This document shows positions 2,273 through 18,744 of a stretch of DNA of 64,000 bases, piece after piece (the stretch's first letter is position 1; each line of letters opens with the position of its first letter). This DNA comes from Morinoia aosen (taxonomy: Eukaryota; Arthropoda; Malacostraca; Amphipoda; Talitridae), in contig CM059569.1 in the NCBI GenBank assembly GCA_030386875.1, positions 42,013,842-42,077,841 of the forward strand, given 5' to 3'. The translations under genes and the position numbers were made by a program. Under the pieces are notes generated by a model. It was not told where the DNA came from, searched no databases, and saw only the letters and a program-made list of their open reading frames with translations.

Positions 2273-2293
2273 TTCTCCCGATAGAATAATTCG

Positions 2294-2400
2294 GTGCTGC
2301 TATAGCGTGAGGTCTACCGCCATAAATTGCCGACCCAGGTGCGGTTTGAGATGTATAAAGTAAGTTTTTATCGCTAAATTAAATGTTTGGAGATAAGTAA
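2294..2400 (+). mobile_element. Solo end of the TIR/47-bp-satellite transposon family
   Basis: The sequence from 2294 (GTGCTGCTATAGCGTGAGGT...) matches, in inverted orientation, the right end of the large element at 17326-17422 over about 97 bp with roughly nine bases in ten identical by eye. The match includes the 25-bp terminal motif and the distal 'TATCGCTAAATTAAATGT' block. No opposite end was found in the following kilobase, so this is a truncated copy. It carries no satellite. Confidence 0.7.
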
Positions 2401-3242
2401 TTTGCAACGTCAATTTAGAAATTATTTTGGAATGAAATATTCACAGCTGAGAAAATGTTTTAAAAATCATGCGTGTTCGAGGACCGAATGGGACTGTTGA
2501 GCGCACGGTGCATCATCTTACAGTCGCCGCAATGCGTGCGTTGTGTCAAGAGAGCTGCTGAAAATTGTGACAACATTTGCTAGACGCCACTTTCAGAGAT
2601 TATTCAATCTTGCTGGGTAACAAAATGGCTGTTATAACTGGCAAAGAACTCAAGATTTCACTTTCACGTGTAACATGGTTTAAATATTGTATAATGAACC
2701 GTTGTATAACGATAGATGGAATGAACACATCTTCAACTAAACATCGTGTTCCCTTTCAACAAAGATGAAAGAAAATTTTTTGTTATTCTGGTATGAATAG
2801 GCGCTGAATTTTCAATCTATCTAATTTTGTTAGTTATCGAAACCTCATTTCTATGAAACTGTTTGATATTCTTGCAGAGCTTTCACCTATTGTGAACTTT
2901 CAAACAAAAATGATCATTTCGCAATAAATTGCTATTCAATGATTGCCTGAAGTATTCTTGAATGGACAGGAAATAAAAAAGATAATTTGTCTAGAATATG
3001 TCGTTTTCTATGTAATACCGAGAATAATGCTTAGAATTACGTAATGTTAGGTTTTCAATGGATAATATAATACTACGAGGATAAGGCATAAAATGTAGAG
3101 GATAAATTTATCGAGAATAACTCTAAGAAAGCTGGATTGATGTTAACTCGGCCAATTTTGCTCTCTTTATCCTCTGCCACGTGACCCAAACATTGCAGTT
3201 GTAGAGCGCTCTAGTGGTTGGCGAATCTAGACAAAAGTCAAG
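2401..3242. other. AT-rich unique DNA, nothing recognised
   Basis: Only short chance open frames are present. No repeats or RNA-like structures were seen. Confidence 0.45.
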
Positions 3243-14579: not shown

Positions 14580-14734
14580 AGCGAAACCATTACCGAGAGG
14601 ACCGTAACTACTGGAGTGTCCCAACAGCCTGCCCTTGGAATACGACAGCCAATTTTCGCTAACGACCTTCGTCATGTCGGTAATCGCGTCACATAAAGAC
14701 CCAAGCAGCCATTCCTGAGGGTAGAGGTCAGTGA
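14580..14734 (-). CDS. Candidate exon fragment, function unknown
   Basis: A GC-richer minus-strand segment open across its length, reading a non-repetitive mix (LTDLYPQEWLLGSLCDAITD, then MTKVVSENWLSYSKGRLLG). A donor-like CTCG|GTAATG follows at about 14595. Its upstream edge is cut by the left TIR of the satellite element at 14735. I do not recognise the product. The 2.05-2.27 kb candidate also abuts a TIR copy, which may mean the family inserts in GC-richer DNA, or may be coincidence. Confidence 0.22.
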
Positions 14735-17422
14735 GTGCTGCTGTAGCGTGAGGTCTGCCACACTGTAGCATGAGCCTCTAGCTAGTACTACAGCGTGAGG
14801 TCTGCCACTCTGTAGCATGAGCCTCTAGCTAGTACTACAGCGTGAGGTCTGCCACACTGTAGCATGAGCCTCTAGCTAGTACTATAGCGTGAGGCCTGCC
14901 ACACTGTGGCATGAGCGTCTAGCTAGTACTATAGCGTGAGGTCTGCCACACTGTAGCATGAGACTCTAGCTAATACTATAGCGTGAGGTCTGCCACACTG
15001 TAACATGAGCCTCTAGCTAGTACTATAGCGTGAGGTCTGCCACACTGTAGCATGAGCCTCTAGCTAATACTATAGCGTGAGGTCTGCCACACTGTAGCAT
15101 GAGCCTCTAGCTAGTACTATAGCGTGAGGTCTGCCACACTGTAGCATGAGCCTCTAGCTAATACTATAGCGTGAGGTCTGCCACACTGTAGCATGAGCCT
15201 CTAGCTAGTACTATAGCGTGAGGTCTGCCACACTGTAGCATGAGCGTCTAGCTAGTACTATAGCGTGAGGCCTGCCACTCTGTAGCATGAGCGTCTAGCT
15301 AGTACTATAACATGAGGTGTGCCACACTGTAGCATGAGCCTCTAGCTAGTACTATAGCGTGAGGCCTGCCACACTGTAGCATGAGCGTCTAGCTAGTACT
15401 ATAGCGTGAGGCCTGCCACACTGTAGCATGAGCGTCTAGCTAGTACTATAGCGTGAGGCCTGCCACACTGTAGCATGAGCGTCTAGCTAGTACTATAACA
15501 TGAGGTGTGCCACACTGTAGCATGAGCGTCTAGCTAGTACTATAGCGTGAGGCCTGCCACACTGTAGCATGAGCGTCTAGCTAGTACTATAACATGAGGT
15601 GTGCCACACTGTAGCATGAGCGTCTAGCTAGTACTATAGCGTGAGGCCTGCCACTCTGTAGCATGAACTTCCAGCTAGTACTATAACATGAGGTGTGCCA
15701 CACTGTAGCATGAGCCTCTAGCTAGTACTATAGCGTGAGGCCTGCCACACTGTAGCATGAGCTTCCAGCTAGTACTATAACATGAGGTGTGCCACACTGT
15801 AGCATGAGCTTCTAGCTAGTACTATAGCGTGAGGCCTGCCACACTGTAGCATGAGCGTCTAGCTAGTACTATAGCGTGAGGCCTGCCACACTGTAGCATG
15901 AGCGTCTAGCTAGTACTATAGCGTGAGGCCTGCCACTCTGTAGCATGAGCTTCCAGCTAGTACTATAACATGAGGTGTGCCACACTGTAGCATGAGCTTC
16001 TAGCTAGTACTATAGCGTGAGGCCTGCCACACTGTAGCATGAGCGTCTAGCTAGTACTATAGCGTGAGGCCTGCCACTCTGTAGCATGAGATTCCAGCTA
16101 GTACTATAACATGAGGTGTGCCACACTGTAGCATGAGCTTCTAGCTAGTACTATAGCGTGAGGCCTGCCACACTGTAGCATGAGCGTCTAGCTAGTACTA
16201 TAGCGTGAGGCCTGCCACACTGTAGCATGAGCTTCCAGCTAGTACTATAACATGAGGTGTGCCACACTGTAACATGAGCTTCTAGCTAGTACTATAGCGT
16301 GAGGTGTGCCACACTGTAGCATGAGCTTCTAGCTAGTACTATAGCGTGAGGCCTGCCACACTGTAGCATGAGCGTCTAGCTAGTACTATAGCGTGAGGCC
16401 TGCCACACTGTAGCATGAGCCTCTAGCTAGTACTATAGCGTGAGGTCTGCCACACTGTAGCATGAGCGTCTAGCTAGTACTATAGCGTGAGGCCTGCCAC
16501 TCTGTAGCATGAGCTTCCAGCTAGTACTATAACATGAGGTGTGCCACACTGTAGCATGAGCGTCTAGCTAGTACTATAGCGTGAGGCCTGCCACACTGTA
16601 TCATGAGCGTCTAGCTAGTACTATAGCGTGAGGCCTGCCACTCTGTAGCATGAGCTTCCAGCTAGTACTATAACATGAGGTGTGCCACACTGTAGCATGA
16701 GCGTCTAGCTAGTACTATAGCGTGAGGCCTGCCACACTGTAGCATGAGCGTCTAGCTAGTACTATAGCGTGAGGCCTGCCACACTGTAGCATGAGCTTCC
16801 AGCTAGTACTATAACATGAGGTGTGCCACACTGTAGCATGAGCGTCTAGCTAGTACTATAGCGTGAGGCCTGCCACACTGTAGCATGAGCGTCTAGCTAG
16901 TACTATAGCGTGAGGCCTGCCACTCTGTAGCATGAGCTTCTAGCTAGTACTATAATATGAGGTGTGCCACACTGTAGCATGAGCGTCTAGCTAGTACTAT
17001 AGCGTGAGGCCTGCCACACTGTAGCATGAGCCTCTAGCTAGTACTATAGCGTGAGGCCTGCCACACTGTAGCATGAGCCTCTAGCTAGTACTATAGCGTG
17101 AGGCCTGCCACACTGTAGCATGAGCCTCTAGCTAGTACTACAGCGTGAGGTCTGCCACACTGTAGCATGAGCTTCCAGCTGGTACTATAACATGAGGTGT
17201 GCCACACTGTAGCATAAGCCTCTAGCTAGTACTATAGCGTGAGGTCTGCCACACTGTAGCATGAGCTTCTAGCTAGTACTATAGCGTGACGTTAGGTTTG
17301 GATACTAATGGACATAACTTATTTCCACACATTTAATTTAGCGATAAACATCTTAATTTGTACATCTCAAACTGCACCGGGGTAGGCGATTTATGGCGGT
17401 AGACCTCACGCTATAGCAGCAC
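14735..17422 (+). mobile_element. TIR-bounded DNA element filled by a 47-bp satellite
   Basis: Left end 14735-14759 (GTGCTGCTGTAGCGTGAGGT...) and right end 17398-17422 are inverted copies matching at 23 of 25 positions. Between them lie a 2.55-kb tandem array (14743-17288) and about 135 bp of non-repeated right-arm sequence, which is shared with the solo end at 2294-2400. The flanks TCAGTGAG (14728-14735) and CCAGTTAG (17422-17429) agree at 6 of 8 bases and may be a decayed 8-bp target duplication, which would suggest hAT, though this is not certain. No transposase is present. MITE-like and Helitron-like elements with an internal satellite are known in other animals. Confidence 0.72.
14743..17288. 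repeat. 47-bp satellite array, ~54 copies, with trimer higher-order structure
   Basis: The unit is TAGCGTGAGGYCTGCCACAC + TGTAGCATGAGC + (CT/GT/TT)CTAGCTAG + TACTA, 47 bp. Its first 17 bases equal the inner part of the element's TIR. Two main subtypes exist: R (AGCGTGAGG) and A (AACATGAGGTGTGCC, linked to TTCCAGCTAG in the preceding unit). A-units are absent before about 15.3 kb and then occur in repeated R-R-A trimers (141 bp), clearest at 16.0-17.0 kb. Edge units keep GGTCTGCC as in the TIR. Confidence 0.93.
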
Positions 17423-17429
17423 CAGTTAG

Positions 17430-18744
17430 TATACATTCTATAGTCAAAATGTAGTGAAGCCTTTAGCCTGCTAAACGAAGAGCATATATACTTCTGGACA
17501 ACGTTGTTCACTGGGAAGTTTATTATTATTACCATTATTATCATTATTATTGTAGGGTTTTCCCAACTATGAAGATTCCGTCTTATTTTAGCACATAGTG
17601 AAACAATTATTCTCTAATTTGTTCGAAGGGAATCCAACCATTGAAATAAAACTTGTATAATTTATAGAACAGCCTGGCAATGATGACCTTCAATTTTTAA
17701 TACTGCATTTTGAGAAGCTACATATCGTGTCTGGCAAAAATACAGCAATGAATATCAAAATTAATAAAACCTTTCAATATGCCAAACTTGATCCCAGCAT
17801 TTTCAGCACAAACGAAATACAAAATACCAAAACTGTCCCTCGTTTTAGACTGAAACTCAAAGCACCAATCAACCAATTTACGATTAGTTCTCCTCTGCAT
17901 GCAGAGACCTAAACGATGTCGTAGTATATTTTTCTTGAAGTGTTAATGTTTGTTCTCACTAACACTTCAATAGCCGTTACCATTGCAACCTCTCCTTTTA
18001 TCAATATACTAATCGCGACAAAACATCCTCATCGAGAAACACTAACTCTCCTTTAAGCCCAAAGTCGGGAATTATAATGTTCGAACTCCAGCAATGAACT
18101 CCCAAGCTTAATTTTTAATTGGTCAAATGGGTAAAGAATGAAACTTTGATGCTAAATAAAGTCGTGAGAGTTCGGGCTTTACTTCAGCATCGGAACCTGC
18201 TGTTGCAAGGGTCCTCATGAAACGCTCCGAGTAAGTGCCTCGAGCGCAAGTTATAGTAAGCAAGCGGCCCAAAGTTTATACGCCCCAAGTTGTGTAGCCT
18301 GACTACTGGCCCGAATTATATTACTTCGCAAACTGTCGTATGGCTAAATGTCTTTTCAAAACAATTGAGTTACCGGAGACGTATCGTCCTACAAAACATG
18401 GTCGTGAAAGCTGTATTTACTGTGCGTCTGCTGTGGTCAAGGTCTTTGAATTTAGTGGTTAAGTGTTTCTTTTCAGGAACTGAATATGGACAAATAACTG
18501 TCAGTATTCATGTGCCTCAATATTTAAAGAAACAAATCCTTTGTAAACTGTCATATTTTTATTCTTTTGCGTCTTCTTACTTATTCACAACTGCGCATCA
18601 TTTCCAATCGAACAGCGAAAACAAGATTCGACGAACAAAAATGTACAAGTGACTTTCTATTCACCACAAGTTTGGAAGCGACTGCGTTGGTTTGTAATAT
18701 TGTTACAATGCAAGTCAGGGTGCCAGAGTACTAAATTTCTAATG
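17430..18744. other. Unique DNA with a short TTA/TCA microsatellite
   Basis: A (TTATTATTACCA)-like microsatellite sits at 17520-17553. The open frame at 18290-18652 (120 codons) shows no motif, hydrophobic pattern or splice context I can defend. Confidence 0.4.

Follow-up and report, generated by a model that had tools for sequence, protein, structure and literature searches.

A 47-bp satellite array in Morinoia aosen that probably grew in place from the left arm of a dispersed MITE

How does a satellite array come to lie between the ends of a transposon, and does it then travel with them? The question is raised by a tandem repeat in a stretch of 64,000 nucleotides from the amphipod Morinoia aosen (hereafter the window), which the initial annotation had described as some 54 copies of a 47-bp unit between inverted ends, the first bases of the unit being the inner part of the terminal inverted repeat (TIR). 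Both descriptions held, since repeat detection with TRF gave a period of 47, 54.2 copies and 91% matches, the inverted ends flanking the array match at 23 of 25 positions, and the units stand in register with the TIR, with the motif AGCGTGAGG kept in 41 of 54. The array starts within the TIR, stops eight bases past the beginning of the third left-arm motif (described below) and has a higher-order pattern of period 3. Comparison with other members of the family shifted each end outward by one base, to the limits given in Table 1; the first left base of the window copy is A and that of the family is G. In a census of window arrays with a period of 12-120 and at least four copies, for which inverted repeats were sought in 250-base flanks, the 47-bp array was the only one of 17 with an inverted repeat at E <0.03 (its value was 5e-7). 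No stop-to-stop frame of at least 130 aa overlaps the window copy. The 8-mers adjoining this copy agree at 5 of 8 positions and, because such a match is reached by about 7% of mismatched pairs, its own target duplication is not significant. The right arm recurs in the window free of satellite, as had also been noted, at about 90-91% identity; there lies the sole further window site outside the array that matches the TIR at 19 or more of 25 positions (at 2294, 23 of 25). Since no second TIR for this copy was found within the window, we read it as truncated.

Table 1. Positions of the element copies and their parts in the window.
Feature	Position	Strand	Basis
MITE copy swollen by the array	14734..17423	+	ends set by comparison with 27 other loci
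Left TIR; from 14744 also the first array unit	14734..14759	+	23/25 with right end
Array: 54 units of 47 bp and 8 bases of a further unit (17282-17289)	14744..17289	+	repeat detection, period-3 pattern
Non-repeated right arm	17290..17397	+	40 scored of 2281 first-look genome candidates
Right TIR	17398..17423	-	inverted match; outermost base set by other family members
Left 8-mer GGTCAGTG, possible degraded target duplication	14726..14733	.	5/8 with right 8-mer, alone not significant
Right 8-mer AGTTAGTA, possible degraded target duplication	17424..17431	.	5/8 with left 8-mer
Second copy, truncated to right arm and right end, no array	2293..2401	-	90.8% over 109 bases to the arm

Searching the genome (1.99 Gb in 29 contigs) with the right arm gave 2281 first-look candidates, of which 40, the window among them, were scored; the other 39 are 89-92% identical to the arm. 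We read 28 of the 40 scored loci, window included, and most of the 27 others hold an element of about 205 bp with GGTGC termini, with GGTGCTGCTATAGCGTGAGGTCTACC on the left side, a right arm of some 130 bp and, on the right side, the same end in inverted orientation. Copies with these arms and ends and a single unit are the majority of those read, and the junction of the unit to the single-copy arm has 150 exact matches spread over many contigs. Among the 41 rows for loci with both ends found, which contain segmental duplicates (L003/L005/L015 and L019/L020) and two loci entered twice, 12 rows representing 11 distinct loci have flanking 8-mers that agree at 7 or 8 of 8 positions, as against 0.55% of mismatched pairs; the family therefore makes 8-bp duplications. 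The left end of L022/L023 escaped the script, and the right end of L006 was wrongly placed; by eye the duplications at these loci are 8/8 and 7/8, respectively. The element is thus short, non-coding and dispersed, with TIRs in the window and in other copies and a duplication fixed at 8 bp in the family, as in a MITE. The family is star-like, its members lying about 8% from their consensus. The single-copy left arm (for example at 4785-4800 of L009) continues into GGTTAGGTTAGGTTA, which we take to resemble the arthropod TTAGG telomere repeat.

The cited passages on Merlin elements give terminal 5'-GG, duplications of 8 or 9 bp and reported internal tandem repeats (PMC8101967). On sequence features, the termini and duplications of the MITE appear to fit Merlin, its TIR starting with GG (GGTGC in family copies) and its duplication being 8 bp. 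The genome has 101 matches to the Merlin transposase (PF12762), and the autonomous relative with the same TIR that had been suggested as a partner did not emerge: the TIR was absent from the 14 examined of these 101 loci, where the best match was 17/26 and never a terminus, and a search through TIR variants yielded no such relative among the 20 fetched of 55 exact matches, all of which are this MITE. Merlin-type genes do lie between inverted repeats at L039, L063 and L066 (94-97% identical; 63-201 bp if L041 is included) and at L041 (91% over 162 bp); the repeat ends at these four loci, as aligned, do not start with GG. Two other kinds of element were considered and set aside. Helitrons have no TIR and no target duplication, and a Helitron with internal repeats is ruled out here by the TIRs and the 8-bp duplications. 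A foldback element, which would have tandem repeats in both of its long TIRs, was rejected on the TIR of about 26 bp and on the array of the window, which occupies one arm only; L079 and L080 are two-sided but with different units on the two sides.

The origin of the unit can be followed in the left arm. The motif CTATAGCGTGAGGTCTACC lies there at offset +7 and recurs at +29 with 17/19 matches and at +59 with 14/19, and this repetition is found family-wide. The second copy is beyond chance, as the best 19-base direct repeat of the arm reaches 17/19 and that of 300 shuffles at most 14/19; the third copy, which matches the first at 14/19, scores the same as the best shuffle, its first 14 bases matching consecutively. 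The distance from the first motif to the third is 52 bp in the family and 47 bp in the window copy, whose unit has a 5-bp deletion. The unit therefore consists of the inner-TIR motif together with the left subterminal arm, and the array is that arm segment repeated. The annotated derivation of the array from the left terminus is accordingly retained in part: the inner-TIR motif and the adjoining left arm are indeed its source, but the seed was not the bare TIR, because the left arm of the family already repeats the inner motif, with its first and third copies 52 bp apart. Intermediate copies occur, with two units in L014 and L026 and four in L051. Furthermore, 7 of 11 fetched ACCT variants are deleted between motifs 1 and 2, which in our reading is the opposite product of unequal exchange.

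Arrays of this kind are found at many other loci. With four window units as query, 221 matches were obtained in the genome, covering among the matches listed the window and at least 36 other places, and most listed matches span 206-210 bases, that is, 52-bp units. The junction between 52-bp units has 1734 exact matches; at C1:35.75 Mb the spacing of these junctions is mostly 55. Of eight other arrays fetched, none lacks both element ends (L034 and L078 extend past the fetched pieces). In seven of the eight the array directly follows the left terminus, L035 being ambiguous, and in six the right arm comes after the array, up to the end of the piece in L031; this arm is absent in L032, and the piece from L034 stops earlier. 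Together with the predominance of single-unit copies among those read, these ends bear out the proposal of an array within a mobile element; as to unit number and target duplications, the copies read have one, two, four or tens of units, and the family has 8-bp duplications. L030 and L035 have two successive right arms after the array, a further kind of terminal duplication.

Did the arrays spread with the element, or did they grow where they are? One exact form of the 47-bp unit has 11 matches in the genome, all inside the window array, so that the privacy of the 47-bp form rests on a single exact form of the unit. When 315 units from nine arrays (46 of 54 window units scored) were compared, 230 had their closest matches exclusively at their own locus, 81 were ties and 4 were nearer to units elsewhere; because ties dominate in L029 (22/28) and L032 (24/39), the independence of these two arrays is weakly shown. 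We read these data as separate growth at each site. The privacy of the 47-bp form, together with 52-bp units that are mostly private to their locus, fits growth in place better than seeding by moving arrays, and the earlier suggestion that the element seeds new loci is, for the window array, not supported by the same two results. We thus regard it as probable that the window array is a left-arm segment of the MITE that was duplicated and then grew in place, with separate events in other copies. The source would be one inserted copy of the dispersed ~205-bp element, whose left arm repeats the inner motif of the TIR. The segment from motif 1 to motif 3, shortened from 52 to 47 bp, would have been duplicated between direct repeats by unequal exchange or replication slippage, and would then have grown in place, presumably after insertion, to 54 units. 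The same process probably ran independently in numerous other copies, for the most part with 52-bp units, and related events probably built arrays out of the extreme bases of one end or the other. Against growth in place stands the target duplication of the window copy, only 5/8, and the array may have grown before insertion.

Arrays with other units occupy both ends of the element. Those from the right end have units of 43 bp (L002, L010, L079-L083) or 39 bp (L006). From the left end come 20-bp units (L012, with 69 units in the piece tested, and part of L073) and units of 72 bp or near it (L043, L061, L071-L078, of which L077 has two copies only and L075 a unit of 67 bp). Further arrays are a 25-bp one on the right of L076 and a 21-bp one on the left of L080, and L079, L080, L073 and L076 each hold two kinds. 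Units of the 20-, 39- and 72-bp types are joined at the terminus and those of the 43-bp type one base short of it; in these four types, which involve both element ends at separate loci, no flanking base stands between units. The joints suggest that a cut at the terminus began the terminal-type arrays. If transposase cut one end only, and the cut end then joined or invaded the sister copy at an internal site, such joints at the terminus would result; that end-cutting by the element itself starts arrays, which would make the MITE a repeated generator of satellite seeds, is nevertheless a proposal that we hold as decidedly doubtful. The 69-unit array of the bare 20-bp terminus in L012 (3500-4680) lies no more than about 10 kb from a 72-bp array (C10 59578381-59582343), in a 2.3-Mb part of C10 where such arrays cluster.

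If array-bearing copies had transposed as such, their movement would have seeded arrays at new loci, and several distributions are consistent with this. For the 72-bp junction, the first 100 of 194 exact matches, listed in contig order, are confined to C2 5.8-9.2 Mb and to 10 sites in C10 59.2-61.5 Mb, on both strands, while single-element junctions spread over C1-C10 (57 among the matches listed, by our own count); matches to the 43-bp array crowd on C14 and C22, the same 43-bp joint occurs at separate loci with unrelated flanks, and the 39-bp array of L006 is enclosed by 8-mers agreeing at 7/8. However, right arms within one carrier type are no closer to one another than random (0.177 for type A, 0.213 for B and 0.177 for E against 0.155, the single-unit sample having been picked for similarity to the window arm, a choice that reduces its divergence). 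These distances oppose a recent spread, and the star-like family would accommodate an early one; the exact 47-bp form, for its part, is private to its locus. Overall, we consider the travel of arrays unlikely. Movement of the 43-bp type as a lineage was dropped, the right arms of its carriers being no closer than random sets. Segmental duplication behind the clustered arrays was likewise rejected, as no shared flanks were seen in 32 flank pieces; of 34 flank-piece matches, as read, 33 lie in residual element ends and the remaining one is between the left and right flanks of L029. In L029, 34 bases at 91% are common to both flanks, just outside the element.

Alternatively, nothing about the element need be special, if any DNA in this host can become a minisatellite and one fell by chance in a MITE. 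Unrelated arrays are indeed abundant, with 30 in 142,571 bases of flanks at 17 loci (0.21 per kb, 9.6% of the sequence) and 17 in the window, the 47-bp array included, between 3818 and 63662 (16% of the sequence). By the same criterion, however, arrays occur in 5 of 23 sampled elements against 0.99 expected (P 0.0035), in a sample that leaves out the window and segmental duplicates and in which L017 barely qualifies (four 22-bp copies); the element therefore carries arrays about five times as often as expected, against a genomic background in which they are common. Since the joints also lie at the element terminus in four unit types, a general tendency of the host is somewhat unlikely as the whole account. 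Capture of a pre-existing satellite, as proposed for miDNA4 in Xenopus, would agree with the large excess of exact unit junctions over single-copy junctions given above, but the unit is the ordinary left arm with the TIR motif inside it, and most of the eight 52-bp arrays fetched begin at the left terminus and run into the right arm, making capture extremely improbable. By analogy with Galileo and Tetris, extra units might be kept for putative transposase-binding sites, to which the retention of AGCGTGAGG in most units and the family-wide repetition of the left-arm motif would lend some weight; the long arrays look private and not proliferating, and we think selection of this kind very unlikely.

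Growth of a satellite from transposon ends has precedents. According to the parts of the literature cited here, Tetris/TIR-220 of Drosophila virilis is, like the present MITE, a non-autonomous TIR element with long arrays grown inside it; it makes duplications of 8-10 bp, and its internal repeats are possibly TIR-derived, with 37 bp shared at ~80% (PMC4079207). In contrast, Tetris is a foldback element with repeats in long TIRs, whereas the element described here is about 205 bp with TIRs of ~26 bp and an array in one arm; unlike Tetris as described there, it also has several unrelated unit lengths at different copies. The Xstir satellite of the Xmix MITE in Xenopus, compared through a review, is likewise a tandem repeat riding on a MITE, and miDNA4, another MITE of Xenopus, similarly has one to many internal monomers but is said in the cited account to have captured a pre-existing repeat, where the unit here is the element's own arm. 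In Galileo F copies of Drosophila mojavensis, tandem repeats of the TIR vary in number between copies and ends, as here, but there are up to a few long repeats per TIR, and the TIRs are much longer (PMC3573991). Extra repeats have been proposed to add transposase-binding sites in both Galileo (PMC3573991) and Tetris (PMC4079207). In the table of a review, Tetris TIR-220 and Xstir are listed with the TIR as their source and pvB370 with a terminal repeat, and a second review, in the part cited, states that satellites can arise from TIRs. In light of Tetris, Xstir and pvB370, origin from a TIR is not new, and derivation of the unit from the TIR, which had been put forward as the point of interest, does not set this locus apart. 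In the portions of the literature searched, we found no single MITE listed as the source of several unit types drawn from both of its ends.

The initial observation is thus real and largely explained. An array enclosed by transposon ends need not travel with the transposon, and this calls for caution wherever such an arrangement is met. Here, one short element family gives many satellite starts in one genome, its copies having one, two, four or tens of units and both element ends having supplied several types of unit. In this family the first step of satellite birth is readable from the array joints.
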